Positions 5,770-40,877 of a stretch of DNA of 64,000 nucleotides are shown piece by piece. The position numbers were made by a program, and so were the translations under genes. Position 1 is the first letter of the stretch; each line of letters opens with the position of its first letter. The stretch is from a virus: positions 1-64,000 of the IMG/VR virus record IMGVR_UViG_3300028393_004717. One strand, 5' to 3'. Under the pieces are notes generated by a model that ran no database searches, was not told the origin of the DNA, and was given only the letters and a program-made list of their open reading frames with translations.

Positions 5770-6636
5770 ATGAATATAATTGTAACTGGCGGTGCTGGTT
5801 TTGTTGGTAGCAATTTAGTCGATAGACTTATCGATCAAAATTATAATGTTTTAGTTTTAGACAATTTTGCTACTGGTTTTAAAGAAAATTTAAATAAAAA
5901 ATCTGTTTTTTCAATGTTTGACATAAGGAACAATTGGAATGATTTACCCTTATTGCAAGGATTTAAGCCAGATATCATATATCATATAGCTGCTCTTGCT
6001 CGCATACAACCAAGCTTTAATAGACCTTATGAAACTTTAGATGTAAATGCTCAAGGAACTGTAAGAGCTTTGGAGTATGCAAAAAACAAAAATTGTAAAC
6101 TTGTTTATTCGGGATCTTCTTCATTTTATTTTGATCCTCATGTGAATCCATATGCTCATTCGAAATGGATTGGAGAAGAACATTGCAAGATGTACAACAA
6201 AACATACGGAGTTCCAATAGCCATAGCCAGATTTTTTAATGTTTATGGAAAAAGACATGTTCAACAAGGAGATAATGCTAATGTATTGGGAATATTTGAA
6301 TACCAAAGATCTAATGGCCTTCCAATAACTATAACTGGTAATGGGGAACAAAGACGAGATTTTACAAATATTGAAGATATATGTGATGGACTTATTTCTA
6401 TGGGTAAAGAAAGTTGGAATGCAGATATTTTTAATTTAGGAAGAAGTTATAATTATTCGATAAATGAAGTTGCTAAAATGTTTAACCCAAAAGAAATAAT
6501 TTATGTTCCATCAAGAATTGGAGAAGCAATATACACTCTTGCCGATATAAGTTTCTCAAAAGAAAAATTAAATTGGGAACCAAAACACAATTTGCCAGAT
6601 TATATTGAAGGGTTTTTAAGAAATATTAAAAACTAA
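5770..6636 (+). CDS. NAD-dependent epimerase/dehydratase (extended SDR)
   Basis: A 288-aa extended short-chain dehydrogenase of the nucleotide-sugar epimerase/dehydratase family. The Rossmann motif TGGAGFVGS starts at residue 6. The catalytic region has SGSSS followed by YAHSK (the YxxxK pair). A substrate-domain signature RFFNVYG and the late QRRDF motif follow. I start at 5770, where the Rossmann strand begins; an upstream in-frame ATG would add about 26 hydrophobic residues that do not fit the family. It probably supplies an activated sugar to the glycosyltransferases next door. It overlaps the convergent GT2 gene by 4 bp. Confidence 0.9.
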   Translation: MNIIVTGGAGFVGSNLVDRLIDQNYNVLVLDNFATGFKENLNKKSVFSMFDIRNNWNDLPLLQGFKPDIIYHIAALARIQPSFNRPYETLDVNAQGTVRALEYAKNKNCKLVYSGSSSFYFDPHVNPYAHSKWIGEEHCKMYNKTYGVPIAIARFFNVYGKRHVQQGDNANVLGIFEYQRSNGLPITITGNGEQRRDFTNIEDICDGLISMGKESWNADIFNLGRSYNYSINEVAKMFNPKEIIYVPSRIGEAIYTLADISFSKEKLNWEPKHNLPDYIEGFLRNIKN

Positions 6637-7331
6637 TAAAGATATTTTCTCAATAAAAGCTTATCAAGCAATGAATTCATAGCGGTTATTTGTTCTGGTT
6701 TTTTATCCCATCCACCGCTTTTACAAACTTGTTTAGCTTTAGCTTCTGGTATGTATTTAAATATAAATCCTTGACTAGAAAATCTAGTATGCAATTCTCT
6801 AGTCATTCCTCCATATTGATCAATCCTTTCGCAAAACATACCAGCACTAACCATGTTGCTTCTTCTAATGGCAGAAAAGTTTTCTACAAAACTTGTTTTT
6901 TGTGATCCTTTATCGCCAAACACCCATAGCTTATCATTTTTTGATCTTAAAGGTTTTATAAGATTGATCAAAGACAATTCTCCATCTGGTGTGAGCCTAT
7001 CATCTAAAAATACTAAAAATTCACCTTTAGATTCTATGACTCCAAAATTTCTTGCTCTTGCCAACCCATAATCTTTATTACCTTTATTATCAAATCTTGC
7101 ACAATAAATATATTTCACATCCAACTCTTTTAAATTATTTTCAAATTTTGTTCCATTTGAATTATAATATTTCTGATCACTATCATCACAAATGATTATT
7201 TCTTTTTTTTCATATTTTTGATTTTTAATATTATTGATATTTTCTAATGCAACCTCATATCTGTTATGAGTTGGAATTATAATTGATATCAAATCTTTAT
7301 TTACAATTGTATTACTTCTTGGGGTTCTCAT
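6633..7331 (-). CDS. Family 2 glycosyltransferase
   Basis: A 232-aa GT-A-type glycosyltransferase. It opens with ISIIIPTHNRYEVA and IIICDDS (nucleotide-sugar binding). The GLARARNFGV element comes next, then the metal-binding acidic motif FLDDR near residue 113. The gene is compact, with no membrane anchor. AAGGAAATTT precedes the ATG, and the first 20 bp overlap the end of the upstream gene, so it is coupled to it. The donor and acceptor sugars cannot be inferred. It belongs to a three-gene minus-strand glycan operon. Confidence 0.88.
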   Translation of the reverse strand: MRTPRSNTIVNKDLISIIIPTHNRYEVALENINNIKNQKYEKKEIIICDDSDQKYYNSNGTKFENNLKELDVKYIYCARFDNKGNKDYGLARARNFGVIESKGEFLVFLDDRLTPDGELSLINLIKPLRSKNDKLWVFGDKGSQKTSFVENFSAIRRSNMVSAGMFCERIDQYGGMTRELHTRFSSQGFIFKYIPEAKAKQVCKSGGWDKKPEQITAMNSLLDKLLLRKYLY

Positions 7332-8274
7332 AAATTTCCTTATATTTTAATCCAACATTTATAATTGATATTTGAGGTTTTAATTTTTTAGAAAATTCTG
7401 ATGTTTCCAACCAATATTCATGGGAAAAAAGTTTATCTGTGTCAAAAGGTTCCGCCAAGGTCAGTCCTCTTTTCATAAAATATTCATAGCTATAACTTTC
7501 TTTATTTATTGCAAAAGGTATACCAGAAGAAACATATTTTTGAGCTTTTGTCGGTGGCTTATGGCATTGACTAAAATGAGTTATTGATTTTATATCTATC
7601 GCTGCTTTTGCTTGTTCCAGAAGTTCTTTTTGAACTTCTTCAGACCACACATATGATTTTATTCCATTTATCGTATTGTAATCATCAGAAATTTGCATGG
7701 ACAATCTTAATTCTCGACATAATTTTCCAGCCCCATTTTTTGCCCTTTCATTTTTTAAATCTGAGCATATTCTTAATTCATAATTTATTGTATTCTTTTT
7801 AATGTAATCTAATAAAAATGGAATATATTGAAAGCTTCCTATCCACAATACAAAGCCATCTTTTTTATAAGAATTTGTTTCTTGAAGTGAAAATTTACTA
7901 TGATGTTCAACAAAATGAACATTATTGTTTATTTTTTCAAAATATGGAATCCATCTTTCGCAATGCAATCCAATAGCATCACACTTTGAAAGAAAATTTA
8001 AATCTTCTTTTAGCTGATTTTCACTATGGTAAAAATCTATAGGACAATATAAAACTTTTGTTCCTTTGCTTTTAATTGTTTGTATATTGATTTTTTTTAA
8101 AGGATGTTTCACTAACATTAAAAAATCACAATTTGGTATTTTTTCAAGTGATCTAAAAGTTATCACATTGTAATACTTTGAAAGTTCTTTTGCCGTATCT
8201 TTTCCAACCCAATTCCATGAAGGCATATTAGATATTTCAGGACCAACAGCTAATGTCTTTTTTATTGTTTTCAT
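7312..8274 (-). CDS. Probable GT-B-fold glycosyltransferase
   Basis: A 320-aa protein whose C-terminal half carries a GT-B-like nucleotide-sugar site. The stretch KPPTKAQKYVSSGIPFAIN (about 244-262) resembles the part of GT-B enzymes where a Lys-rich helix and a G-I/V-P turn grip the donor. The N-terminal half has alternating strands and helices (VLYCPIDFYHS, DAIGLHCERW) typical of the acceptor domain. It starts 2 nt after the stop of the GT2-DUF616 gene and overlaps the GT2 gene downstream. The fold is inferred from pattern; a less likely alternative is a non-catalytic homologue. Confidence 0.6.
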   Translation of the reverse strand: MKTIKKTLAVGPEISNMPSWNWVGKDTAKELSKYYNVITFRSLEKIPNCDFLMLVKHPLKKINIQTIKSKGTKVLYCPIDFYHSENQLKEDLNFLSKCDAIGLHCERWIPYFEKINNNVHFVEHHSKFSLQETNSYKKDGFVLWIGSFQYIPFLLDYIKKNTINYELRICSDLKNERAKNGAGKLCRELRLSMQISDDYNTINGIKSYVWSEEVQKELLEQAKAAIDIKSITHFSQCHKPPTKAQKYVSSGIPFAINKESYSYEYFMKRGLTLAEPFDTDKLFSHEYWLETSEFSKKLKPQISIINVGLKYKEIYENPKK

Positions 8275-8276
8275 AA

Positions 8277-10061
8277 CTAACGACTATTGTGAGAGAATCT
8301 TGTAAATAAATAATTTTCTTTTTTTATATCACCAGGGAAATTATTTATTTTTATATTTAATTTTCTAGCCACATAATCAAAACTTATTTGATCTCTTTTT
8401 GATCCATTTGATATTTCTTCCCACCACATTTCGTTGAATTTTTTTATTTCATTTGAATGTCTTCTTAACAAAACAGTACATTCGCTTAATCCATTATTTT
8501 TAGGATATCCATCACGGATATATTTTTGAATCTGCTTTGTTATTGTAAAAGCATCATCTAGTTTTCGAGCAATACAAGTTTTTGCTTCATCGTAAACGCA
8601 ATTTCTTTCATGATGCTTAAAAAGAGCTATGTCGCAATTAGAAAGATATATTTCGGCCAATCTGCTTATATTGAAGGGAAATTTAATTCTTATAGATCCA
8701 TCAATCCAAAGACTATATTCTTTGTCTGGAAAATAAATGTGTGATAATATCTTGTGAATTTTTGCATTTCTATTTGGATCTGAAAATGTTGTATGTATCT
8801 GCTTTGAATTCCATGTTTTTGAATCAATTGGATTTTCTAGAAACGCAACAAACTCAGTTCCATCATTGTGGTTTTTTTGATCTTTTAATTTGTCGTAATT
8901 ATTGGATGCATTCGTAATTGCAGTGTATACAACAATATTTTTTGGATCTACTTCAATATTATTTTTTGATATATTTCTTTCCAAAAACGCCTTAAGCATA
9001 TTTGTTTTTATCCACTTTTGATGAAATATATTTCTATTTTGTTTCACAAATTGATGTGAAGCTGAATTCGTGTGTCCTCCTTTGTGATATATGATGGAAT
9101 CAGGAGTAAAAAGTATTTTGTATCCATGAGCATGTGTTTTCATGCATAAGTCGGAATCTTCCCAATATCCGATCCTATATTGTGTGTCAAATTCTCCAAT
9201 CAATTTAAAAAAATCTGACGGAATCATAAAACAAGCACCAGTAACCATTTCTACTTCTCTAATTTCCATTAGATCTTTTGGTACATTATCCAAAGTAAAA
9301 GAATGATTGATATATTTCTTTTTGTATATGTGTTTTCCTATATGTAAAAAAGCACAAATACCTTCATCCCATTCAGAGCCAAGTGAATCAATAATTATTC
9401 CTTCTTTAAGATGTAAATTTCCAACTATTCCAATGTTATTTTGTTTTTGAAAACAATCATACATTGGCTTTATCCAGTTCGGAGTAGTAATTGTATCTGC
9501 GTTTAAAAATATAAGATATTTTCCTTTTGCAAATTTTGCACCTAAATTACAAGCATTTGCGAAACCACCATTTGTTCTTTCTACATGAATTATTTTCCCT
9601 ATTCCTTTTTCTGGTTTTGGTTTGTTTGACCAAGATTTAAGAATTTCAATGTGACTTTTTTCTGGACAACAATCATCCACATAAATTATTTCTTTTTTAA
9701 GATTGTCATGTTCATCGAAATTCCATGATTCGATTTGCTTTTTGATAAAATCTCTGCTTTTGTAACATGGTATTATTATGGATACATCAATTTCATTTTC
9801 TGATGATACAAACCAATGTGGGGTTTCTAATTCTTTGAAAGAAGGAGGAACATATGGAGATATATGAGGAGCAACACTTATCGTAACTGGAAAATTGTTT
9901 TTTTGTAATTTTTTATTTCTTACATTATTGTGAATTTCTATTTTTTTATTTTTCTGAAATAATTCTGCATTTTCTGGGGTTATACGAAGATATGGATTGT
10001 TAGCTTTTTTGGCCAATGCTTCTTGTATCTTTATTTTATTTGATAATTTTTTATCATCCAT
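8277..10061 (-). CDS. Two-domain glycosyltransferase: GT2 plus DUF616 (TOD1-like)
   Basis: A 594-aa fusion. The first 75 residues form a linker. A GT2 domain follows, with DVSIIIPCYKS, IIYVDDCCPE, the NGGFANACNLG loop, the metal motif FLNADT, and a late GYWEDSDLCMK motif. The C-terminal domain (about 375-594) matches DUF616, with VVYTAITN at its start, SLWIDGSIRI in the middle and EMWWEEISNGSKRDQISF near the end; plant members of this family are TOD1/MUCI70 glycosyltransferases. The start is at 10061, just after the upstream stop; the reading frame runs further upstream but without good initiation. Two catalytic domains suggest stepwise synthesis of a short glycan. Confidence 0.87.
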   Translation of the reverse strand: MDDKKLSNKIKIQEALAKKANNPYLRITPENAELFQKNKKIEIHNNVRNKKLQKNNFPVTISVAPHISPYVPPSFKELETPHWFVSSENEIDVSIIIPCYKSRDFIKKQIESWNFDEHDNLKKEIIYVDDCCPEKSHIEILKSWSNKPKPEKGIGKIIHVERTNGGFANACNLGAKFAKGKYLIFLNADTITTPNWIKPMYDCFQKQNNIGIVGNLHLKEGIIIDSLGSEWDEGICAFLHIGKHIYKKKYINHSFTLDNVPKDLMEIREVEMVTGACFMIPSDFFKLIGEFDTQYRIGYWEDSDLCMKTHAHGYKILFTPDSIIYHKGGHTNSASHQFVKQNRNIFHQKWIKTNMLKAFLERNISKNNIEVDPKNIVVYTAITNASNNYDKLKDQKNHNDGTEFVAFLENPIDSKTWNSKQIHTTFSDPNRNAKIHKILSHIYFPDKEYSLWIDGSIRIKFPFNISRLAEIYLSNCDIALFKHHERNCVYDEAKTCIARKLDDAFTITKQIQKYIRDGYPKNNGLSECTVLLRRHSNEIKKFNEMWWEEISNGSKRDQISFDYVARKLNIKINNFPGDIKKENYLFTRFSHNSR

Positions 10062-15813: not shown

Positions 15814-16364
15814 TGAAAAATGATTATCAAACTTTTTACAAAATGTTTTCAAAATTGGAAGGAATTAAAATATTTCAAAGCGAAGAAGATCCTAGTACTT
15901 GGTTTTTCTTTTCTTGTAATTCTGAATACTCTTTTGCATTTGTTACCGCAATTGTAGAAGAAATAGGAGATGATAATATTTGTAAAATGGTTTCTCTTGG
16001 ACACCCAATAAGCACAGAAGATACGGCTTACCAACTTGTTTTTCATGCGGATAAAGAACAATTGTATAAAACATTCATAGCTAAAATTAATGCTTATTTG
16101 GAAAATTCAAAAAATCTTAAACACGATGAATTTGGTAATCCAGATTTATCACTTGTGACAATTAAGCAAATTGCAAAAGAACTTAAAAAAAGAAAGAATT
16201 TGTCGTTTGCCGTTGTTTGGATGGAAGATACAAATAAAGAAAATATCGCAATAGAAGGTAATGGAAATCCAACTCAAATAGTTGGACTATTAGCTAGAGG
16301 ACTACACATGGCAATAGAATGGTCAGATAAATTTTTGAAGATAAGTAAACCAGAAAAAGATTAA
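15813..16364 (+). CDS. Hypothetical protein
   Basis: A 183-aa protein with no recognised domain, beginning MKNDYQTFYKMFSKLEGIK. It has mixed alpha/beta character: a strand-rich centre (STWFFFSCNSEYSFAFVTAIVEE) and a second helical half. GGAGG lies 6 nt before the ATG, which shares a base with the stop of the SWIM gene, so the two are coupled. It overlaps the convergent end of the first tail-cassette gene by 4 bp. Confidence 0.5.
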   Translation: MKNDYQTFYKMFSKLEGIKIFQSEEDPSTWFFFSCNSEYSFAFVTAIVEEIGDDNICKMVSLGHPISTEDTAYQLVFHADKEQLYKTFIAKINAYLENSKNLKHDEFGNPDLSLVTIKQIAKELKKRKNLSFAVVWMEDTNKENIAIEGNGNPTQIVGLLARGLHMAIEWSDKFLKISKPEKD

Positions 16365-16696
16365 GCAATACCAATCTTTACTATCATCCAGTTGACAACA
16401 GAATTGTTGCTGGATGATATTGTAAATGTCCAATCATGACTTTGTGGAACTGGACTTATTTCTTTTGAAATGTAAGGACAACCCTTATCGTTTGATGTGA
16501 GAAATATGGCGTAATCGGTAAAATCACCAGAGGGTGATGGAAATTTTATCGTGGCACTTGTGCCATTCATTTTTTCTATCCCAGCAGCAACTATTTTTGG
16601 GCCAACAAGATTTGTTATACTCAATGAAGCTCTAGATAAATCATTCGATTTATAAGCCGAACCAATTCCTGTTCCTGTTACGCTTGAAGCACCCAT
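16361..16696 (-). CDS. Tail-cassette paralogue 1 (short, shared N-terminal anchor)
   Basis: A 111-aa protein. The first 15 residues (MGASSVTGTGIGSAY) are the Gly/Ser/Thr anchor shared by the six tandem genes at 16361-19944. The rest is a short beta-rich domain containing TIKFPSPSGDFTDYAIFLTSND and ending in MIVKIGIA, which resembles the C-terminal domain of paralogue 6. AAGGAG precedes the ATG. The modular design, a constant N-terminus with a variable domain, is typical of virion fibre or decoration proteins. Confidence 0.6.
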   Translation of the reverse strand: MGASSVTGTGIGSAYKSNDLSRASLSITNLVGPKIVAAGIEKMNGTSATIKFPSPSGDFTDYAIFLTSNDKGCPYISKEISPVPQSHDWTFTISSSNNSVVNWMIVKIGIA

Positions 16697-16723
16697 TTAT
16701 ACTCCTTAATATATGTAAGCTTC

Positions 16724-16772
16724 AAAAAATAAAAAAGTAATGTGGTTTTTACACATCACCTTTTTATTTTTT
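16724..16772 (-). terminator. Hairpin terminator after paralogue 2
   Basis: Two 21-nt arms at 16724-16744 and 16752-16772 flank a 7-nt loop. On the minus strand they pair completely with two G-U wobbles (A-C mismatches on plus) and end in an A/T-rich run giving a U-rich tail. Confidence 0.7.
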
Positions 16773-16787
16773 AAAATTAATTTAAAA

Positions 16788-17369
16788 TTATGTATTGGTA
16801 CCAAAAGGATTACTTACAGTTTGACCACCATCCGTAATGACATCACCTTGTATCCAGTAACTGGTTCCCAAACTAATCGCCACCACATAACTTCCTATGA
16901 TACCACCAGTCTTATTGTTGGTTCCATATTCTATTTTGTTACTCGTAGCACTGGCAGCAAAAGTTCTAGTTTCAGCTACGCCATTTTTGTGTAGCGTTAA
17001 ACTACCAGTCATTAGATCAGAAAAAGGATAACATTGAATAAAGAATTGATCTGGTCGAACCGTGGTCAAAAAGCGGAATGTCTGACCAATCGTAGTAGTG
17101 CTTAATTCTGGTAATGTTATGAATCCATTTGGCCCGTGATCTAACAAAAAAAGTTTCCCATCATCAGATGCAGATATCTGATGAACAGGAAGTGATACAA
17201 CAGATTCGGTGTACGACACTATAGTCGAAATTTCAGAGGAAGATGATGCATTAGCAATTGCAGAGGTCACATCTACTGCTAGATTTAGTAGTTTTACATT
17301 ATTTTGAATTCTTGGTAATGATCTCTCTACTGCTCCATTTCCTGTTCCTTCATTGGTTTTAGCTCCCAT
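16788..17369 (-). CDS. Tail-cassette paralogue 2
   Basis: A 193-aa protein. The anchor MGAKTNEGTGNGAVERS leads into LPRIQNN, almost identical at DNA level to paralogue 3, so these two share a recent duplication of the 5' module. The rest is beta-rich, with ISASDDGKLFLLDHGPNGFITLPEL and a late IEYGTNNKTGGIIGSYVVAIS, a pattern that recurs in paralogue 4 as DTITMDGSTKGGKKGNHVEIL. This looks like a small trimeric beta-domain used in phage fibres. The ribosome site AAGGAG and the 21-nt leader are identical to those of paralogue 3. Confidence 0.6.
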   Translation of the reverse strand: MGAKTNEGTGNGAVERSLPRIQNNVKLLNLAVDVTSAIANASSSSEISTIVSYTESVVSLPVHQISASDDGKLFLLDHGPNGFITLPELSTTTIGQTFRFLTTVRPDQFFIQCYPFSDLMTGSLTLHKNGVAETRTFAASATSNKIEYGTNNKTGGIIGSYVVAISLGTSYWIQGDVITDGGQTVSNPFGTNT

Positions 17370-17390
17370 AATAATCTCCTTTTTGTTATG
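17370..17390 (-). promoter_or_regulatory. Conserved 5' leader of cassette genes
   Basis: The 21 nt before the paralogue-2 ATG match the 21 nt before the paralogue-3 ATG (18020-18040) exactly and contain AAAAAGGAGATTATT. Paralogues 4 and 5 keep only the AAGGAGATTA part. Beyond it lies a decayed copy of the TGCATCTTGG half-hairpin seen at 18053-18084, showing that leader and gene start were copied as a unit. Confidence 0.6.
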
Positions 17391-17415
17391 TTAAATGAAT
17401 ATATTTGCATCTTGG

Positions 17416-17460
17416 AAAAAACAAAGTGATATATCAAAAAATAAATCACTTTGTTTTTTT
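17416..17460 (-). terminator. Hairpin terminator after paralogue 3
   Basis: A 15-bp stem of ACAAAGTGAT type, arms 17416-17430 and 17445-17460, with long A and T runs on both sides. It therefore looks bidirectional, but it sits directly downstream of the minus-strand gene ending at 17492. Confidence 0.75.
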
Positions 17461-17491
17461 AAATTATCAACTTTGTTTTAATGATGCTATA

Positions 17492-18019
17492 TTAAAGTGC
17501 AGCAATTGCAGTTTTAAAAGCATCAAAATCAGCAGCAGCAGCAGTCAAGGTCTTTAAATCAGATATTTTAATCCAAATAGCATTGCCGTTAAAATCTTTA
17601 ATGTTTCCACCATCTGGTAATGTCATAATACCATCATTGTGAAATCTCCAGTTGTTATCGTCAACATCAATGTTCACTTGATGTTGGTGATTGAGGCTGT
17701 TTCCACCATCAAGATTATCATCAAGGTTATGATTGCCTACTGTAATGCTTACATCAGGACCATAACTAGGCATCATGTCTCTTTGACCGCCCCACCATAA
17801 TCCTAAATATTCTGTGTTACTTGAAGCCCAAATTACTGATTCTTGATCATTCTGTCTTGATGCCCCTAGTGTTCCAACTAAAAGACCACCAGTAAAAGCA
17901 GTAAGATCAGTTATGTTTGATAGATTTCTTACATTTTCTGGTTTGATATTATTTTGAATTCTCGGAAAAGAATTCTCTACTGCTCCATTGCCTCTTCCTT
18001 CTGTTGTTGTAGCTGCCAT
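17492..18019 (-). CDS. Tail-cassette paralogue 3
   Basis: A 175-aa protein with anchor MAATTTEGRGNGAVENS and the same FPRIQNN continuation as paralogue 2. The variable part carries ESVIWASSNTEYLGLWWGG, a His/Asp/Asn-rich segment (GNHNLDDNLDGGNSLNHQHQVNID would be its core) and a helical end (ADFDAFKTAIAAL). The His/Asp repeat could bind metal, as in some fibre tips. The shared 5' leader and own terminator indicate an independent unit. Confidence 0.6.
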   Translation of the reverse strand: MAATTTEGRGNGAVENSFPRIQNNIKPENVRNLSNITDLTAFTGGLLVGTLGASRQNDQESVIWASSNTEYLGLWWGGQRDMMPSYGPDVSITVGNHNLDDNLDGGNSLNHQHQVNIDVDDNNWRFHNDGIMTLPDGGNIKDFNGNAIWIKISDLKTLTAAAADFDAFKTAIAAL

Positions 18020-18040
18020 AATAATCTCCTTTTTGTTATG
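18020..18040 (-). promoter_or_regulatory. Conserved 5' leader of cassette genes (second copy)
   Basis: This 21-nt stretch is identical to 17370-17390 and holds the ribosome-binding site of paralogue 3. Identity ends soon after, where the 18053-18084 hairpin begins. Confidence 0.6.
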
Positions 18041-18052
18041 TGGAATGAATAA

Positions 18053-18084
18053 ATCTGCATCTTGGTTTTTGCCAAGATGCAGAT
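18053..18084 (-). terminator. Perfect 13-bp hairpin after paralogue 4
   Basis: Arms 18053-18065 and 18072-18084 (ATCTGCATCTTGG type) pair without mismatch around a 6-nt loop. On the minus strand the stem is followed by TTTATT, a weak U-tract. It lies 11 bp beyond the stop of the gene at 18095. Confidence 0.65.
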
Positions 18085-18094
18085 CAAATTAAAC

Positions 18095-18676
18095 TTAGGA
18101 AACTGCGTTACTGAAAGGGGTTACTTCAGTAGCTGTCTGAGTAAGAACTGCTCTTACATGGAATATGCCAGCAGCCATATCGAGTATTTCGACATGATTA
18201 CCTTTTTTACCACCTTTGGTAGAGCCATCCATAGTAATCGTATCATCACTAGCACCTGCAATCCACATATCGATTGCGGTAGGTGTGCCAGACAATGGTG
18301 TTTCGTCATCAGAACCAAAAGCAACGCCACTCATGATGTCAGTTCCATTGGCTACCTGAATCTTGTAAACATTGCTAGTTACAGTAGTTTTAACATAAAA
18401 CTTGTAGGTGTCACCAGTTCCAGTAGCTGCTGGAAGAGTAACGACAACACCTGCTAATCTATCTAAAATTAAAGGTATGTTAGCCTTGCTAGAATCAAGA
18501 GTTATTGTCGCAGTATCAAGAACAAATGGTGTTTTTGATAATGCGTTATTATCGAGTTTTGCTGCGGTCACAGCGTTTGGTTCAATGTTTACTGTTTTAA
18601 CAGAACCATTGAGAATCAATGGTTTGATGTTTGATGCAGAACCATTTCCTGTTCCTTCTGTTGTTGTAGCTGCCAT
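18095..18676 (-). CDS. Tail-cassette paralogue 4
   Basis: A 193-aa protein. After the anchor MAATTTEGTGNGSASN comes IKPLILNGSVKTVNIEPNAV, closely matching paralogue 5. The body is an all-beta domain: LPAATGTGDTYKFYVKTTV, then YKIQVANGTDIMSGVAF and a late MWIAGASDDTITMDGS. This is a typical phage fibre/tail-spike type of domain with Thr/Val-rich strands. It ends in a beta strand before NAVS. AAGGAG precedes the ATG. Confidence 0.62.
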   Translation of the reverse strand: MAATTTEGTGNGSASNIKPLILNGSVKTVNIEPNAVTAAKLDNNALSKTPFVLDTATITLDSSKANIPLILDRLAGVVVTLPAATGTGDTYKFYVKTTVTSNVYKIQVANGTDIMSGVAFGSDDETPLSGTPTAIDMWIAGASDDTITMDGSTKGGKKGNHVEILDMAAGIFHVRAVLTQTATEVTPFSNAVS

Positions 18677-18719
18677 AGTAATCTCCTTTTATATATATAA
18701 AAACCAATCAAACACAATA

Positions 18720-18746
18720 AACTTAGCTTAACATAAAGACTAAGTT
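18720..18746 (-). terminator. Weak hairpin after paralogue 5
   Basis: A 7-bp AACTTAG/CTAAGTT stem with a 13-nt loop overlaps the stop codon at 18745 and is followed on the minus strand by TTATTG. A terminator role is tentative. Confidence 0.4.
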
Positions 18747-19461
18747 ACCTTGCGTATTCAGAAACTTTCAACACCGCACTGTTGGTGTTCAATGTAAGGA
18801 TGTCATCTGCTCCATCCCTCTTTGCTTGAATTTTAATGGTCAACGCACTCGTGACAGAATTTGAAAAAACCATGGCGATGGGAAACAGCACCGCACTTCT
18901 AGTGCCACCACCTGCACTATTCAACCATGTTTGGTTTCTCCATGTTATCTCAACATCGTTGACCGTTATTCTGGATCTGAAATTATCTGCCAAGCCTCCA
19001 CCGACAGCATAAGTTGAGTTGTACTCGATATACAAGGAACTGCTGCCAGAAACTGGCGTGTACGAAACCGATGCAAAATCAACATAATTGTTATTATCAC
19101 CATTACTTACTTCGCCAGCGGTGAATGTATAGAAACTCGTATTTAAATGTTGTCCATTTAATCCCCCTCTGATGTAACCATCTGCGGTTATATTGTTGCC
19201 AGACGAAATGTCACCATCAGCGGATATAGAGCCACCAGACAAAATGTCGCCATCAGCGGATATGTTGTTATTAGAGGTTATATTTCCCTCTGCACTGACA
19301 TTTGATTCGGTTGTCATATCGCCAGTTGCGTTGATGTCGTATTTCCAATTATGGAGAATGTCAACGCCAAGATTTTCAGCTTTCACTACACCATTGATGA
19401 TAAGTGGCTTTTGTTTGCTTACAGATCCTATTCCCACACCCTCTTGACTTGTAGCTCCCAT
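18745..19461 (-). CDS. Tail-cassette paralogue 5 with tandem Ser/Asn repeats
   Basis: A 238-aa protein with anchor MGATSQEGVGIGSVSK. Residues about 46-92 hold five short repeats of the form S-A-D-G-D-I-S-S-G-N (SAEGNITSNN, SADGDILSGG and so on), a beta-helix-like stalk in which each copy is 10-11 residues. The C-terminal domain is beta-rich, with SLYIEYNSTYAVGGGL, and ends in ILTLNTNSAVLKVSEYAR. Repeats of this kind form slender fibre stalks. The gene keeps the AAGGAGATTA ribosome site. Confidence 0.62.
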   Translation of the reverse strand: MGATSQEGVGIGSVSKQKPLIINGVVKAENLGVDILHNWKYDINATGDMTTESNVSAEGNITSNNNISADGDILSGGSISADGDISSGNNITADGYIRGGLNGQHLNTSFYTFTAGEVSNGDNNNYVDFASVSYTPVSGSSSLYIEYNSTYAVGGGLADNFRSRITVNDVEITWRNQTWLNSAGGGTRSAVLFPIAMVFSNSVTSALTIKIQAKRDGADDILTLNTNSAVLKVSEYAR

Positions 19462-19502
19462 AATAATCTCCTTTTTAAAAAAAATTTATACGGACATGGA
19501 AA

Positions 19503-19532
19503 TTTCCAGCGTGAAGAAATCCACGCTGGAAA
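19503..19532 (-). terminator. Perfect 11-bp hairpin after paralogue 6
   Basis: Arms 19503-19513 and 19522-19532 (TTTCCAGCGTG type) flank an 8-nt loop. A run of seven As follows on plus, so a U-tract exists before rather than after the stem on minus; the terminator call is therefore moderate. Confidence 0.5.
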
Positions 19533-19542
19533 AAAAGTTAAA

Positions 19543-19944
19543 TTACTTTCTTACATTGATGCCGCTTTTAACGACCATGTACATGAAGGTTTGCGTATTG
19601 TTATCCCCAGTATGAAGGATAAAACCAGCAAATCCGCTATCGAATCCATCATTGCTGTAGTTTTCGTTAGCATCGAACTTAGCAATGTGTGGTGGTTTGT
19701 TGTTCGCCAAATATAAAGAATCATCAAGATCTGATTGCATTGCAAATACTGAGTAATTATCAGGATTTAATGGAAGTTCTGGAAATCTGACAATCACTTG
19801 CCAGTTTCCATGTTCGGCTGAAATAACCGTAGTCGCAATACCAGTCAAAACGATATGTGGATCGTTAATGGTAATGTTCTTGATTGCTGGTCCAACCTTG
19901 CTGGCTGAACCTTGACCTACGCCCGTTACGCTAGTAGCACCCAT
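19543..19944 (-). CDS. Tail-cassette paralogue 6
   Basis: A 133-aa protein. The anchor MGATSVTGVGQGSASK is followed by VGPAIKNITINDPHIVLTGI. The beta-rich body contains WQVIVRFPELPLNPDNYSVF and ends in TFMYMVVKSGINVRK, clearly related to paralogue 1. It is the first gene of the array in transcription order. AAGGAGG precedes the ATG. The upstream 110 bp hold short inverted CTATAG repeats but no confident promoter. Confidence 0.6.
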   Translation of the reverse strand: MGATSVTGVGQGSASKVGPAIKNITINDPHIVLTGIATTVISAEHGNWQVIVRFPELPLNPDNYSVFAMQSDLDDSLYLANNKPPHIAKFDANENYSNDGFDSGFAGFILHTGDNNTQTFMYMVVKSGINVRK

Positions 19945-21395: not shown

Positions 21396-22211
21396 ATGAT
21401 AAAAACAACAAAAGATGCAGAGCAAGAAGGTGTGTTGGAAAATTGTATTTACAATGCAAATTGTCTTGATTTAATGAAACATATTAAAAGCAATAATATT
21501 GATATGGTTCTAACATCTCCTCCTTACGATAATCTTCGAACATATAGTGGAAGTTTAGATTGGGGCGAACACATTTGGAAACCAGCAATTCAAGAATTGT
21601 TTAGAGTAATAAAGGAAGGTGGGGTAGTAGTTTGGGTAGTCGGAGATGCTACCATCAAGGGCAATGAGACAGGAACTTCATTTAAACAAGCACTTCACTT
21701 TAAAGATGTAGGATTTAATCTTCATGATACGATGATATGGCATAAGACCGCCATTTTTCCTCACCACTTGAACGCACAACGATACAAACAACAGTTCGAT
21801 TACATGTTCGTGTTCACAAAGGGAAGCGTAAATACATACAATCCTATTCACGATATACCAAATGAATCTGCTGGTAAAACTTTTCAAATTAAAAAAAAGA
21901 TTAAGACATCAGACAATGGACGATATAATGGGCGAACCAAAAACCTAAAAATATCTGATTTTCGTATGCGTGACAATGTTTGGCGTGAAGGTCGTTCTGG
22001 CTATAAAGGACATCCAGCCCCTTTCCCAGAGAAACTTGCCTATGACCATATTTTATCATGGTCAAATGAAGGTGACATAATACTAGACCCATTTGCTGGT
22101 AGTGGAACAGTAGGTAAAATTGCAAAACAAATAAATCGTAAATATATCCTTATAGAAAAAGAATCAAAATATACAGATATAATCAATAAAAGAATAAATG
22201 AAAATCAATAA
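21396..22211 (+). CDS. DNA methyltransferase (N4-cytosine or N6-adenine, beta class)
   Basis: A 271-aa site-specific DNA methyltransferase. Catalytic motif IV is TSPPYD at residues 40-45, and the SAM-binding motif I is DPFAGSGT near residue 236. The catalytic motif precedes the SAM motif, which is the beta-class order. TSPPY favours N4-cytosine methylation, but N6-adenine enzymes of this class share it. There is no linked restriction enzyme, so it is an orphan, probably protecting phage DNA. The target-recognition region lies around residues 120-220. Confidence 0.88.
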   Translation: MIKTTKDAEQEGVLENCIYNANCLDLMKHIKSNNIDMVLTSPPYDNLRTYSGSLDWGEHIWKPAIQELFRVIKEGGVVVWVVGDATIKGNETGTSFKQALHFKDVGFNLHDTMIWHKTAIFPHHLNAQRYKQQFDYMFVFTKGSVNTYNPIHDIPNESAGKTFQIKKKIKTSDNGRYNGRTKNLKISDFRMRDNVWREGRSGYKGHPAPFPEKLAYDHILSWSNEGDIILDPFAGSGTVGKIAKQINRKYILIEKESKYTDIINKRINENQ

Positions 22212-22718: not shown

Positions 22719-23735
22719 ATGCAAATTATCAATGAAATAAAACTTGGATTTAATGATGTCCTCATAAAGCCAAAACGATCTAAAACAGCCAGTAGAAAAG
22801 ATGTAGTCCTATCAAGAAGCTTTAAAGGACTAAATAGCAATTCAATAATAAAAGGAGTGCCAATCATTGTTGCCAACATGGATACTGTTGGAACTTTGAA
22901 AATGGCAGAATCATTAGGTAAATTAAATATTTTTACTTGTCTTCATAAATTCTATGAATTGCCTGTACTACAGAAATTCTTTGATTCTAATGAATACTCA
23001 GAATTCGCATTTTACACAACTGGAATTACCGATGACGATTTTATCAAACTGAAAGAAATGAAATCTACAAATCGAAAAATAAACATCTCAATTGATGTCG
23101 CTAATGGCTATACAGAACACTTTCAAAACAAAGTCAAAGAAATTAGATCTATATTCCCAGATTCATTTATCATGGCTGGAAATGTATGTACCCCAGAAAT
23201 GGTTCAAGAACTCTTATTGTCAGGTGCAGCAGATTGTATAAAAGTCGGAATAGGAGGTGGTAGCGTATGTAAAACTCGGATGGTTACAGGAGTAGGATAT
23301 CCCCAACTTAGTGCCGTAATTGAATGTGCAGAAGCAGCACATGGATTAAATGGACTTATATGTTCAGATGGTGGATGCAAAGAATCTGGTGATGTGGCAA
23401 AAGCTTTCGGAGCAGGATCAGACTTTGTAATGCTTGGAGGAATGTTTGCTGGTACAGATGAATGTGAAGGAGAATGGATATTTGAAGATGATACGAAATA
23501 TTTGAAGTTTTATGGAATGTCTAGTGAAGAGGCAAATAACAAATATTGTGGCGGAATGAAGGATTATAGGGCTTCAGAAGGCGAAGTTAAATTTGTTGGC
23601 TATAAAGGTAGTGCCGAAACTGTAGTAAATCAAATTCTTGGAGGACTAAGATCTGCATGTGCTTATGTTGGAGCTAATCAATTGAAAGATTTAAGCAAAT
23701 GCACCACTTTTGTAAGATGTAATTCTATAAAGTGA
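22719..23735 (+). CDS. guaC: GMP reductase
   Basis: A 338-aa enzyme of the IMPDH/GMPR family that reduces GMP to IMP and ammonia with NADPH. The flap and active site match GuaC: the catalytic Cys184 lies in GGGSVCKTR, followed by TGVGYPQLSAV, and SDGGCKESGDVAKA and GGMFAGTDE come later. Its length is close to that of bacterial GuaC (about 347 aa), with no CBS domains, which separates it from IMP dehydrogenase. AAGG precedes the ATG. The likely effect is diverting guanine nucleotides towards adenine, useful for an AT-rich genome. Confidence 0.93.
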   Translation: MQIINEIKLGFNDVLIKPKRSKTASRKDVVLSRSFKGLNSNSIIKGVPIIVANMDTVGTLKMAESLGKLNIFTCLHKFYELPVLQKFFDSNEYSEFAFYTTGITDDDFIKLKEMKSTNRKINISIDVANGYTEHFQNKVKEIRSIFPDSFIMAGNVCTPEMVQELLLSGAADCIKVGIGGGSVCKTRMVTGVGYPQLSAVIECAEAAHGLNGLICSDGGCKESGDVAKAFGAGSDFVMLGGMFAGTDECEGEWIFEDDTKYLKFYGMSSEEANNKYCGGMKDYRASEGEVKFVGYKGSAETVVNQILGGLRSACAYVGANQLKDLSKCTTFVRCNSIK

Positions 23736-23738
23736 AAT

Positions 23739-25007
23739 TTAAATATGAATTTTATAAAAAATGGACTTTAAATAACTTTTTGTTATTCCATCATTTGATT
23801 TTTCTGCATAATCTTTCATCAAATGCATCATTTTAAGCTTACCTTTTTTGTCTTTTGATGCAATGTTTGTTTTTGCAAATGGATCATTTTTTATATTGTA
23901 TAATTCTTCTGGTTCCCTAAATCTAATTTTGTTATGCATCTTTATATCAGTTCTAGTTATTCCACACATACTCAAAGATTCACTGTTGCAACCACATTCA
24001 ATAAATTCATTTTTTCCATTAGACCAAAAATTAACAATATAACAATAATCTTCATTGTGTATTGCCCTAGTTTGAAAATTTCTGTTTCCCCATAATTGGC
24101 ATAAACAAGTGTAAGCATTATTTTTAAATGAAGATCCTTTTTTAATCGTATTAAAATAAGATGTTCCATCCATATCTTTTTTTTGCAATCCTAGTAATTC
24201 AAGAATGGTTGGCATTATATCCACACTAGAAACATAAGTATCGCTTATCTTAGGCTTTAAAACTTCTGGACAATGCCATATCAAAGGAATCCTACTGCTA
24301 AAATGATAACAATTAGCCTTAACAAATGGAAATGACATACCATGGTCACTAGTGAAAATTATAAGAGTGTTATCTGTTTTGCCACTTTCTTTTAAAGCAC
24401 GAATAATCTCGCCAACAGTCAAATCACACCTTTTGACCCCTTCATAATATTGTGCTAATTCAGTTCTAACTTCTGGAATATCAGGAAGGAAACCAGGCAC
24501 TTTCACACTGCTAGGATCATATCTTGTTTTTTTCTCAAATGGCCTATGTGGATAATGAGAATTTACCATGAGAAAAAAAGGATCTGGAACCGATGAAAAA
24601 AAAGACTTACAAAAGTTGTAATAAGCATTTATATTTTTACCATGACCAGTTATTTTATCGTAACCTAATATCTTCTGACTCCATTTGAATTTATGGTCTG
24701 GACATAAATGCTCCGCTTTTCCAATTATCCCAGTTGTATATCCTCTATTTTTTAAAATGTCTGGAAGTGTAGTTATATGTTCATTTATACAATTGAATCC
24801 AACAGCACCATTATTCCAAGGGTAAAGACCTGTCATCCATACTGATCTAGATGGCTGACAAAGACCTACTGTGGTGTGTGCATTTTCAAAAAATACACCT
24901 TCTTGTCCTAATTTGTCTAAATTTGGTGTTATGTCTGGAATTTCACATCCAGACATACCAGTAGAATTGTAACTCATGTCATCGGCAGATATAAATACTA
25001 TATTCAT
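23739..25007 (-). CDS. Formylglycine-dependent sulfatase
   Basis: A 422-aa sulfatase of the arylsulfatase/heparan-sulfatase superfamily. The metal site Asp9-Asp10 is in ISADDM. The C-x-P-S-R signature is CQPSR at residues 50-54, followed by the helper sequence TG at 59-60. Asp221-His222 in TSDHG complete the calcium site. The Cys must be oxidised to formylglycine; no FGE gene is seen here, so a host enzyme would do this. There is no signal peptide. I prefer ATG 25007 over the GTG at 25010, which overlaps the TAG of the upstream gene. Confidence 0.93.
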   Translation of the reverse strand: MNIVFISADDMSYNSTGMSGCEIPDITPNLDKLGQEGVFFENAHTTVGLCQPSRSVWMTGLYPWNNGAVGFNCINEHITTLPDILKNRGYTTGIIGKAEHLCPDHKFKWSQKILGYDKITGHGKNINAYYNFCKSFFSSVPDPFFLMVNSHYPHRPFEKKTRYDPSSVKVPGFLPDIPEVRTELAQYYEGVKRCDLTVGEIIRALKESGKTDNTLIIFTSDHGMSFPFVKANCYHFSSRIPLIWHCPEVLKPKISDTYVSSVDIMPTILELLGLQKKDMDGTSYFNTIKKGSSFKNNAYTCLCQLWGNRNFQTRAIHNEDYCYIVNFWSNGKNEFIECGCNSESLSMCGITRTDIKMHNKIRFREPEELYNIKNDPFAKTNIASKDKKGKLKMMHLMKDYAEKSNDGITKSYLKSIFYKIHI

Positions 25008-25009
25008 CA

Positions 25010-25414
25010 CTACCGCATAGCTTGATACAAACTTGTAATTGGAGTTAAATCCATAGACTTTGCACCCATACTAGCAACTGGAATGCCACCACACCCACCC
25101 TCTTCTTCATCTTCATCTTTGTCGTTTTTAAATGCATGGCCAACATCAGACATGTACGCTCTGCAAACCGAAATTTTATTTTCCATCCACTCATCAAGCT
25201 GGTCATGATCTTCTAGCATAGAAAGAATGAGGTCAGCGTATTCCTTTATATCTTTTAGGTTATTCATCAACATTCTGTTTCCATCGTTTGAGGCTTCAAG
25301 TTTGTTACTATCATCCGTAGCTATACTATGGTTTTCGCATCGATCATAGTACTCACTTTCAGAAATGATACCAGCTAAATAAAACTTGTAGTTTTCATTT
25401 TTTTTATCAAACAT
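25010..25414 (-). CDS. Small virion-type protein
   Basis: A 134-aa protein. The middle (DLILSMLEDHDQLDEWMENKIS and then VCRAYMSDVGHAF) has the pattern of a widespread phage structural family, where a D-x-L-x-x-W-x-x-x-K-I core is followed by a D/S-Y-hydrophobic helix. An acidic run and GGCGGIPVASMG come next. It is adjacent to and overlaps the sulfatase start. A virion role is likely by pattern; its exact place is unknown. Confidence 0.5.
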   Translation of the reverse strand: MFDKKNENYKFYLAGIISESEYYDRCENHSIATDDSNKLEASNDGNRMLMNNLKDIKEYADLILSMLEDHDQLDEWMENKISVCRAYMSDVGHAFKNDKDEDEEEGGCGGIPVASMGAKSMDLTPITSLYQAMR

Positions 25415-25862: not shown

Positions 25863-26222
25863 ATGGATGAGAAAAATTTTATAAGTAAAGAACAATTTAA
25901 AAAAGAAATTAATGATTATAAAAAATTTCTATTTTCAAGTAACTTGTTTTCTATGGCCATAACCTTAATATCAGCACAAACAGTTCAAAAATTTGTTTCA
26001 ATTATATCAGAAACAATATTTATGCCTTTTATAAATTATATAATAAACTCAACTGGAGGAAATTGGAGAAATCTAATATTCATACCAGTCACAGGAATGG
26101 AAATAGAACTTGGTAAGCTTTTAGGTGGAATCTTAGAATTCACAATTACCATCACATTCATTTATATAGTTTTTTCTAAAATTATAAAAAAGTTCGACCC
26201 CAATAGCGAAATTAAACATTAA
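25863..26222 (+). CDS. MscL-like membrane channel protein
   Basis: A 119-aa protein whose pattern fits the large-conductance mechanosensitive channel family. Transmembrane helix 1 (about 30-54) starts NLFSMAITLISAQTVQKFVS. A periplasmic-type loop (NSTGGNWRNLIFIPVTGMEI) follows, then TM2 (about 80-104) and a charged cytoplasmic tail (KKFDPNSEIKH). Viral MscL-like proteins are known. Here it could let solutes out at lysis or replace a holin. The match is by pattern only and lacks the full N-terminal GNV motif. Confidence 0.65.
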   Translation: MDEKNFISKEQFKKEINDYKKFLFSSNLFSMAITLISAQTVQKFVSIISETIFMPFINYIINSTGGNWRNLIFIPVTGMEIELGKLLGGILEFTITITFIYIVFSKIIKKFDPNSEIKH

Positions 26223-37685: not shown

Positions 37686-40214
37686 TTAACTCAAATAACT
37701 AGTGTCTTTATCTTCGTAATCTTGTTCTGTGCCATAGCTATAGATTTCAAGGTTATATTTCTTCAAATCTTCCTCATCTGCTTCTGGTATTTCAGAGGCG
37801 GACGAACCAGCTTCTTCCTTTGATTCACTTTCTTCTGGAGGAGTACCATCTGGCGGTGGCGTTCCTTCTGGTGGTGGCGTTCCTTCTGGTGGTGGATTTC
37901 CTTCTGCACCCAATTCTGGAGTAGGTCCACCAGCTTCAGCACCAATTTCTGGAGCAGCTTTTTCTTCGCTTGGAACACCGACTCCAAGCAATTGTGGATT
38001 TTGCCCCATGATAGCAATTTTTAAATCTTCAAGTTTTTGTAATTTCAAACGACTCAACATCATCGATGCATCTTCTTCGCTATGCATAAGTATTTTTGTT
38101 AATATGTCGAAATCTGACATAAGCAAACTTCCCTTAAGCGATGCAGCATTACCGAATCTTGCAGTCTTAACTTCATTTCTTGACAATTCACGCCAATCAG
38201 AAGGTGATGTCATTTTTATTTTAAGATCTTGATACATTTCGCTTGGATAGCCACGAAGCTCTAAATGTCTTTCGCAAAGATCAAGAATACCATCTTCAAA
38301 ATTTGATTGTAATCTTTCAATCATGCGAGCAAATTTTACATCTTGTGCAGACAATGTAATTCTTGTTGCATTTACATCTTCGCTTGAGAAATAATTTTTG
38401 GGGAAGTTTAGAGATACAAATAATTTATTTCTGAAGTACAAAGCATCATCTACTTCTCCAAGATTTTGCGCACCAGGCAAAGTTTCAATTCTTGTATTTG
38501 CATTAGGTCGAATTGGAATCCAAAAGTCTTCATCTTGTGCAGGTGGTTGCCATCTTTCTTCAACCATATTGGCTCCGCTATTGCCACGATTGCCAGCAAT
38601 TTTTCTCTTTCTGAATTGATCTTTCATTCTTTCCAAAAATGCTTCTGCTTTAAATGGAGGAAGCTGACCAACATCAATATAGAATACTCTACGCTCTGGC
38701 GCCCGGGTTAGCCTATACACCACCATTGCATCTTCCATGAGTCTTAATTGATGTGCTGGCCCTCTGGCTGGCTCAATAAGAGACTGTCCATAAGGATAGA
38801 AGTTTCTTCTATCATCTCCTATTCTAATATGTAAAACTTGTAATGGATTAAATCTAATTGCTGTAGATTGATTGAGTTCCGCATCACTAAGTTGTGATAT
38901 GTCTCCTCTTCCCAACGATTGATAATCTGGGCCTTCTTTAGATTGTTGGAATTCGATTAATCTTCCTTTGATGGTTTCAATCCTATACATGGTTTCTGGT
39001 GGTAGTGTTGTAAGTTTATATATTCCATCAGAAGGCTTGTCTGGATTTATAACTATTTCAAAAAATTTATCACCATGGACAATTAAATCTTTGAAATAGG
39101 CAAATGCGTGACGATTCAAATTTAACATTTTTCTATGTAACAATAAAAATTCAAGTTCTTTTTTCACTTCATCATTTTTGCAATCAATTCTAAAAACATT
39201 ACCAGTATCATCTTTTTGGCAATTGTGAAGTATAACAGAATCAGTTGCGAAGCATTTGTGTTTTTCAACAGAGATGTCATACACATCAATTTCTTTTCCT
39301 TCTGTGACTCCAACTACTTTGCGACAAGTTTTACTTTTACTTAAATATTTTAATTCTTTAAGTGAGAATCCATTTTTGTGAATACAATTTTCTACTGTGT
39401 GCCAATCTAAATTCATGATTTTGGCAATTTGTCGAACAGGAATATCTCCACAAATCAATCTTGTTGCTCTATTTAATTTTTCATATTCTGGATTTGTTTT
39501 TCCATATCTCCAATCATCGATAAATTGTCTTTCATGTACCCATCCTTTTTCAAAGCTCATGATTCTTGGAAATTGATTTGTTTTGATTTTTGTAAGGTCT
39601 TGATTTGCTGGGGTTCGATAAAACGGCATTAGTTCATCGCCAAATTCTAATTCGCCACAGGCTATCCATTCTCCATTTCTTTTAAGAACTCTATGATCTG
39701 GTGTTGCGATAATTGACTTTCCATTGTCCAAAAGTATTTCAATTGTTTTTGCTTTTTTTACAATTCTTGGAGCAAATGCCCATCCTAAACTGTAATCATT
39801 TTTTTCAAAATCATAACAATATACTAGAAATCTTTCATCTGCTTTATTGTTTGTTAGCCATTCAATTGTTTGATAGCCGAATGGAGTTGCAATTTTAGTA
39901 TCACCAGAAACACAAGCTTCATCAGCAAATACGGTCATAGCCATTTCGATTTCTGGAACATTTCTTAATCTTTCGTATTCCTTGTACCTCATACTCCTAT
40001 TGCCAAGAGTAGTAGTATCAATCATGTCATAGGTTTGACGAAGATTTACATAATTACTTGGGCCTTGGCCTGTTACTAGCTCTCCGCCAGTTTGAAGGGC
40101 ATCGGTTTGTGCTATACCTGCACCCGTAAATTTTGAAGTATCCTTTATTTTGCTTAAAGGATCTTTTTCGGTTGCGTATGTAAACAATTTAAAAAAATCT
40201 GACCAAACTGTCAT
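37686..40214 (-). CDS. gp20: Portal protein, gp20-like, with embedded intein
   Basis: An 842-aa precursor; without the 231-aa intein the portal is 611 aa. The extein N-terminus (residues 1-100) ends IEMAMTVFADEA and rejoins as CQKDDTGNVFRID. Portal features follow: YRLTRAPERRVFYIDVG, the crown/stem sequence ERMKDQFRKRKIAGN and the late LFVSLNFPKNYFSSEDVNAT. The C-terminal 120 residues are Pro/Glu-rich with TPPPEG repeats and an acidic end. It should form the dodecameric DNA gate at one capsid vertex. Splicing is needed for function because the insertion is inside the conserved core. Confidence 0.93.
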   Translation of the reverse strand: MTVWSDFFKLFTYATEKDPLSKIKDTSKFTGAGIAQTDALQTGGELVTGQGPSNYVNLRQTYDMIDTTTLGNRSMRYKEYERLRNVPEIEMAMTVFADEACVSGDTKIATPFGYQTIEWLTNNKADERFLVYCYDFEKNDYSLGWAFAPRIVKKAKTIEILLDNGKSIIATPDHRVLKRNGEWIACGELEFGDELMPFYRTPANQDLTKIKTNQFPRIMSFEKGWVHERQFIDDWRYGKTNPEYEKLNRATRLICGDIPVRQIAKIMNLDWHTVENCIHKNGFSLKELKYLSKSKTCRKVVGVTEGKEIDVYDISVEKHKCFATDSVILHNCQKDDTGNVFRIDCKNDEVKKELEFLLLHRKMLNLNRHAFAYFKDLIVHGDKFFEIVINPDKPSDGIYKLTTLPPETMYRIETIKGRLIEFQQSKEGPDYQSLGRGDISQLSDAELNQSTAIRFNPLQVLHIRIGDDRRNFYPYGQSLIEPARGPAHQLRLMEDAMVVYRLTRAPERRVFYIDVGQLPPFKAEAFLERMKDQFRKRKIAGNRGNSGANMVEERWQPPAQDEDFWIPIRPNANTRIETLPGAQNLGEVDDALYFRNKLFVSLNFPKNYFSSEDVNATRITLSAQDVKFARMIERLQSNFEDGILDLCERHLELRGYPSEMYQDLKIKMTSPSDWRELSRNEVKTARFGNAASLKGSLLMSDFDILTKILMHSEEDASMMLSRLKLQKLEDLKIAIMGQNPQLLGVGVPSEEKAAPEIGAEAGGPTPELGAEGNPPPEGTPPPEGTPPPDGTPPEESESKEEAGSSASEIPEADEEDLKKYNLEIYSYGTEQDYEDKDTSYLS
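39222..39914 (-). mobile_element. Mini-intein in the portal gene (231 aa)
   Basis: Block A begins at Cys101 (CVSGDTKI). Block B is GKSIIATPDHRVLKRNGEW, with the TxxH motif. The C-terminal blocks are DVYDISVEKHKCFATDSVILHN, ending in His-Asn before the +1 Cys. No LAGLIDADG or HNH nuclease motif is visible. The 100-residue centre instead contains a helix-turn-helix-like segment (VRQIAKIMNLDWHTVENCI). It is thus a splicing-competent element with a degenerate or unusual insert. Confidence 0.92.
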
Positions 40215-40283: not shown

Positions 40284-40877
40284 ATGAAAAAAGTTTTATT
40301 TTTATCAAGTCATTTAGGATCTGGGTCTGATCAATTATATGTCGCTTTTTGCGATTTATTATCAATTCAGGGATACAAAAAAGAAAATATCTACAGAAGC
40401 ATGCAAGATATATTTTTTTTAACGGAACAAAAGCATAAACTCAAAACATCGGCAAGAGTTTACATGGATCATTTGCTTTTTAATTATCAATTTTCATGCA
40501 AACAAGCATATGAAAATTGTAAATTTATATTCATTGTACGAGAGCCAGAGGAGACAATTGAATTCTTAGTTTCAAATAAATTTTATAATAAAAAAGATGC
40601 AATTTCATATTATCTTTACAGAATCAGAAGAATATGTGAAATGGCAAAGAATTCAAAAGATGGATTATTTTTAACACATGCAAATTTGAAAAATGGCAAA
40701 GGAATACAGGAAATTAAAGATTATCTTAACATAAAAGAAAGATTTAATTTTGTTTTTGAAAATATTGAAAATAAAAATAAAAATATTTTGACATATAAAG
40801 AAATTGAAAATTTAAATCAGGTTTATGAAAAATATCTTTATTTTGTTCATAATATTAATTGCACTAGTATTAAATAA
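40284..40877 (+). CDS. Possible sulfotransferase-like P-loop protein
   Basis: A 197-aa protein that resembles the sulfotransferase fold. The N-terminal strand and loop VLFLSSHLGSGSDQLY occupy the place of the 5'-phosphosulfate loop, and FIFIVREPEETIEF (about 89-102) resembles the 3'-phosphate motif with its R-x-P. Other expected features are weak, so the call is tentative; a kinase-like P-loop protein is the alternative. It is divergent from the portal by 69 bp. If correct, it would add sulfate groups that the sulfatase at 23739 could remove. Confidence 0.45.
   Translation: MKKVLFLSSHLGSGSDQLYVAFCDLLSIQGYKKENIYRSMQDIFFLTEQKHKLKTSARVYMDHLLFNYQFSCKQAYENCKFIFIVREPEETIEFLVSNKFYNKKDAISYYLYRIRRICEMAKNSKDGLFLTHANLKNGKGIQEIKDYLNIKERFNFVFENIENKNKNILTYKEIENLNQVYEKYLYFVHNINCTSIK

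Follow-up and report, generated by a model that had tools for sequence, protein, structure and literature searches.

Identification of a complete sulfatase gene

The window analyzed here, a stretch of 64,000 nt from an IMG/VR fragment of 66,970 bases, is predicted to encode a complete S1 formylglycine-type sulfatase (23739..25007, minus strand) with all catalytic residues present; chance can be excluded. As judged from sequence comparison, the gene is optional cargo of one T4-like huge-phage lineage. We regard the chances as about even that its product is an active-type enzyme that is matured by the host and hydrolyzes sugar sulfate in the cytosol of the infected cell. Such a role is supported by the intact active site, by purifying selection, by the constant position of the gene among genes of the clade and by a leaderless sister on a second phage contig.

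The 422-aa protein scored 163 bits (E 1.3e-47) with the Pfam profile PF00884 (Sulfatase), the cut-off of which is 25 bits. It also matched 93 PDB sequences at E<=1e-3, among which human sulfamidase (SGSH) ranked first (1.4e-35). By sequence, SGSH and S1_8A are the nearest solved structures, with about 24% identity. An AlphaFold model of low confidence (pLDDT 60), which served as support only, gave 4miv as the best Foldseek match (E 7e-21), and the nearest folds were sulfamidase and the S1_8 lambda-carrageenan sulfatases.

S1 sulfatases carry the motif C/S-x-P-x-R-xxxx-TG, which was found in the translation, aligned with 11 relatives, as C50-Q-P-S-R54-S-V-W-M-T59-G60 (24828..24860; this and the following sites lie on the minus strand). 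The metal-binding Asp9-Asp10 (24978..24983) was invariant in the alignment, and the active-site residues Lys97...His100 (24708..24719) aligned with GKKH of SGSH. Active-site His154 (24546..24548) occupies the position of SGSH H181, the metal-binding Asp221-His222 (24342..24347) belongs to the sequence T219-S-D221-H222-G, and Lys230 (24318..24320) stands where SGSH has R282. The S1 active-site set D9, D10, C50, R54, K97, H100, H154, D221, H222 and K230 is present, with K97, H100, H154 and K230 aligning with the SGSH active site. The CQPSR-xxxx-TG motif, the Asp pair and TSDHG are all as the initial annotation of this DNA had described them.

With SGSH (4mhx) and the SulfAtlas S1_8 enzymes (S1_8A-C, Pseudoalteromonas distincta) the phage protein has in common the fold, the formylglycine motif, the metal ligands, the Lys-His pair and an FP...N.Y segment after TSDHG. 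However, at about 24% identity it is shorter and leaderless, it has K230 in place of the Arg of the SGSH/S1_8 subfamily (R282 in SGSH), and SGSH and S1_8A fall outside its supported tree clade (reference sequences partial). A sugar sulfate is the predicted substrate by analogy with these distant relatives, which are sugar sulfatases. Those S1_8 enzymes that have been characterized work on position 2 of a sugar (PMC12549532; PMC5066984), and the same specificity may be considered as a lead only for the phage protein, which lies outside the clade of S1_8A. Alternatively, the gene could encode a hydrolase of phosphodiesters or phosphonate monoesters from this superfamily and not a sulfatase, as PMH/PehA enzymes have the formylglycine motif too and match at lower score. 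However, the best structure matches were all sulfatases and the PehA model reached 100 bits against a cut-off of 900; we consider this assignment very unlikely.

Genomic context

The sulfatase frame is open over 23739..25010 on the minus strand. With the ATG at 25007 as start codon the product has 422 aa, and with an alternative GTG at 25010 it has 423 aa. This start region overlaps the TAG stop codon of an upstream ORF (25010..25414, minus strand) that encodes a 134-aa protein with no assigned function. The upstream ORF is a clade gene, found in relatives both with and without the sulfatase, and yielded no match among the phage collection sequences. From the other side a gene for IMP dehydrogenase/GMP reductase (22719..23735, plus strand; PF00478, 230 bits) converges on the sulfatase. 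The late-promoter motif TATAAATA was matched 10 times in the window, with 10.6 matches expected, and is thus uninformative. An MscL-type mechanosensitive channel homologue (25863-26222; PF01741, 41.7 bits) adjoins the sulfatase operon.

The window encodes a T4-like portal with an intein, a prohead protease, a major head protein and a terminase. Its capsid protein and that of LR756511, an uncultured phage of 595 kb, are 78% identical, and the gene order of parts of the window is common to both; the window is accordingly placed, by its genes, in a T4-like huge-phage clade. The portal gene (37686-40214) carries an intein-splicing domain (PF14890).

Conservation and loss of the gene

Three other IMG/VR contigs contain the sulfatase with the same gene neighbors (100% identical in one, 97% in two). 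The two diverged alleles differ at 40 bases with unchanged active-site residues, and gave dN 0.013, dS 0.118 and dN/dS about 0.11. Because the gene stands in the same place in three further contigs at 97–100% identity and has this low ratio, it is under purifying selection and is neither contamination nor decaying. An assembly chimera or bacterial contamination might be suspected from the best public 'phage' match to the sulfatase (MT835799.1), a gut contig that has 7 sulfatases within 28 kb and looks bacterial; however, independent contigs from other metagenomes show the same phage flanks, and a deletion scar in two sister contigs (L112 and L113) lies in phage sequence. We rejected this explanation, the probability of which is negligible. 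The proposal of a phage-borne sulfatase in the initial annotation is thus upheld by the flanking phage genes and the recurrence of the gene in independent contigs, and the recent bacterial contamination that it had named as a possible refutation is itself refuted by this shared context.

Other members of the clade are devoid of the gene. A PF00884 match was absent from LR756511 and from 29 related records, one of which has 532,729 bases. In more distant members of the clade, the homologues of ORF 25010 and ORF 22246 enclose a stretch that lacks both the sulfatase and the IMPDH gene next to it. In L112 and L113 (capsid proteins 99% identical) the flanks are kept and the sulfatase is reduced to its start (ATGATG) and roughly its last 16 codons, with the scar at 10835-10905 in L112 and 15060-15125 in L113. 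The remnants are joined at the 7-bp repeat AATGATG, which stands at both gene ends in intact relatives. Sequence comparison places the 3′ copy of this repeat at 23789..23795 in the window and the 5′ site, which reads AGTGATG here and overlaps the start codon, at 25005..25011 (both on the minus strand). The state of L112 and L113 is a sulfatase loss by short-repeat deletion, which implies that their ancestor had the gene. This deletion could also be expected if the sulfatase were a non-functional passenger gene, a view that is hardly probable in light of the dN/dS of about 0.11 and the active site kept intact in two diverged alleles. Phage flanks, a patchy distribution in the clade and a host-type enzyme agree with what is known of phage auxiliary metabolic genes (morons), which likewise are accessory enzymes in a phage locus that are gained or lost between close relatives.

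Bacterial relatives

In a phylogenetic tree the phage sulfatase was located in a clade with 100/99 support together with sulfatases of Bacteroidota, Verrucomicrobiota, Planctomycetota and Acidobacteriota, and its identity to these relatives (L025-L033, L217, L219-L228) is roughly 34–46%. In contrast to the phage gene the relatives are chromosomal; many of them are secreted and some lie in sulfatase clusters. Genome sampling covered Verrucomicrobiota and Bacteroidota and detected close relatives (E<=1e-50) in 28 of 388 and 3 of 395 genomes, respectively. The phage branch was long and basal in the mixed clade in three trees, so that the phylogeny that had been called for placed the protein with bacterial sulfatases but singled out no donor phylum among Verrucomicrobiota, Bacteroidota and their neighbors. 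A Planctomycetes donor was not borne out. We also considered public phage records as precedent and discarded them: most of the 34 matched records are unannotated gut contigs labeled 'Bacteriophage sp.'.

Localization and maturation

Judged by length and sequence, the phage sulfatase has no signal peptide, lipobox or tail-fiber fusion and shows no export signal of the kind expected of a secreted polysaccharide sulfatase. Since it carries no leader or other N-terminal extension and begins directly at beta-strand 1, a cytosolic site of action is probably the simplest reading. Many bacterial relatives possess a leader of 21–55 aa, which is hydrophobic, lipoprotein-like or Tat-like. However, several Verrucomicrobiota copies (L219-L222, L224, L226) are leaderless, so a cytosolic form of this sulfatase clade exists.

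The initial annotation had envisaged that the phage removes sulfate from the surface or capsule of its host, which would call for a virion- or lysis-borne enzyme. A leaderless sulfatase could act after lysis or on the virion, about 7 kb separate the gene from the capsid gene, which has the same orientation, and the relatives include secreted sulfatases in sulfatase clusters. On the other hand, the lack of a signal peptide, which many bacterial relatives have, argues against direct stripping; no fiber or baseplate domain is fused to the protein, and the sister phages L112 and L113 do without it. Stripping of the host surface is thus not supported, and we judge it quite unlikely.

The chemistry of S1 sulfatases requires conversion of Cys to formylglycine, which is made by FGE or anSME. 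Neither was found in the record of the window or in LR756511, and across the clade the phages yielded none, the one exception being an FGE-like domain that forms part of a 1689-aa ORF in G018/G019. As the phage gave no such gene, maturation of the sulfatase would have to come from the host, in agreement with the host requirement stated in the initial annotation. The open frame with the FGE-like domains (G018 C1 52154-56266) possibly encodes a variable fiber protein. FGE has been reported in Pseudoalteromonas phages (PMC10232697). On a prophage-like contig (L232, IMG/VR 2751185864_000002; 6226-8912) an FGE gene is directly followed by a secreted sulfatase gene, and this pair lies near terminase- and portal-like genes.

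In the cytosolic role that we favor, the oxidation of Cys50 to formylglycine by host FGE or anSME would take place in the cytosol; the mature enzyme would then hydrolyze a sulfate ester (or N-sulfate) on a sugar. It would most likely act within the infected cell on a small sulfated glycan or a glycan precursor, at the non-reducing end. Sulfate and sugar would be freed, or sulfated surface-glycan precursors would be altered during infection.

A second phage sulfatase next to a sulfotransferase gene

A further sulfatase without a leader, which has 41% identity to the one in the window, was found on L229 (IMG/VR 3300010885_069090), a contig of 25,970 bases with a median GC content of 0.53 (1.8-kb windows) that carries genes for a head–tail adaptor (phrog_211), a DNA methyltransferase, a COOH.NH2 ligase and a homing endonuclease. 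The window-type and L229 sulfatases form one clade in the tree (99/98 support), and both match phrog_19870, a family of the PHROGs phage database with no function name. IMG/VR pattern scans, which detect only relatives keeping the chosen peptides, yielded no further close members. The L229 sulfatase gene (GC 0.28) converges on a Sulfotransfer_2 gene (GC 0.23; PF03567, 31.2 bits, cut-off 22), which is assigned to phrog_3347, galactose-3-O-sulfotransferase. Both genes lie in a roughly 1.8-kb AT-rich insert (7958-9775, about 26% GC), at the edges of which the composition shifts sharply to the about 53% GC of the remaining contig.

The L229 pair suggests a sulfate-editing cassette that moves between phages. 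As a tentative proposal, well short of even chances, phages would trade a mobile module that comprises a cytosolic phage-specific sulfatase and, in L229, a galactose-type sulfotransferase and that rewrites host glycan sulfation during infection, the sulfatase of the window being a second, independently maintained member.

The window itself contains a protein of sulfotransferase fold (40284..40877, plus strand), a tentative sulfotransferase in the initial annotation. Its AlphaFold model (pLDDT 91) matched sulfotransferase-family structures (PAPS sulfotransferases and retinol dehydratase) in Foldseek matches 1–46 with a best E of 3.1e-5, although sequence-profile support for a sulfotransferase is weak. 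Homologues are clade-wide, 25 of them in the loci searched. S13-G14 and R86/P88 are largely kept among them, whereas the Lys/Arg of the PAPS 5′-phosphosulfate loop is not conserved and position 12 varies. Since homologues also occur in phages without a sulfatase, the protein is not a dedicated sulfatase partner; the initial assignment is upheld at fold level.

These proteins bear on the possibility that sulfatase and phage sulfotransferases together change how glycans or lipids of the host surface are sulfated, via cytosolic precursors, leading to a receptor change or superinfection exclusion. The adjoining genes within one low-GC insert of L229 and the sulfotransferase-fold protein of the window phage speak for it. 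However, the pairing was found on one contig, and the 40284 protein is clade-wide, present in sulfatase-less phages and without the conserved 5′-PSB Lys/Arg, so that we deem such joint action unlikely, if worth considering beside the cytosolic sulfatase role.

No report of a phage sulfatase was found in the open-access literature. The S1 enzyme family and the moron/AMG principle are already known. What is new is that two unrelated phages maintain a phage-type sulfatase without a leader, that sister phages have lost it by a natural deletion, and that in one case it is physically linked to a sulfotransferase. Aquatic environments and microbial surfaces are rich in sulfated glycans, yet the literature searched held no account of phages that take sulfate off them. 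Owing to the purifying selection, the deletion in the closest sisters and the L229 copy beside a sulfotransferase gene, these phages offer a concrete system to ask whether phages rewrite host sulfation or tap it as a source of sulfur and sugar.

Two further observations concern the neighborhood of the sulfatase. An N6_N4 DNA methyltransferase gene (21396-22211) has no match at the corresponding place in the 97% identical relatives L003/L004 and is probably another cargo gene. Neighboring short proteins (16361-19944) begin with a common M(G/A)A(T/S/K)-EG-G-G N-terminus and differ behind it; they vary strongly among close relatives and are possibly fiber-like.
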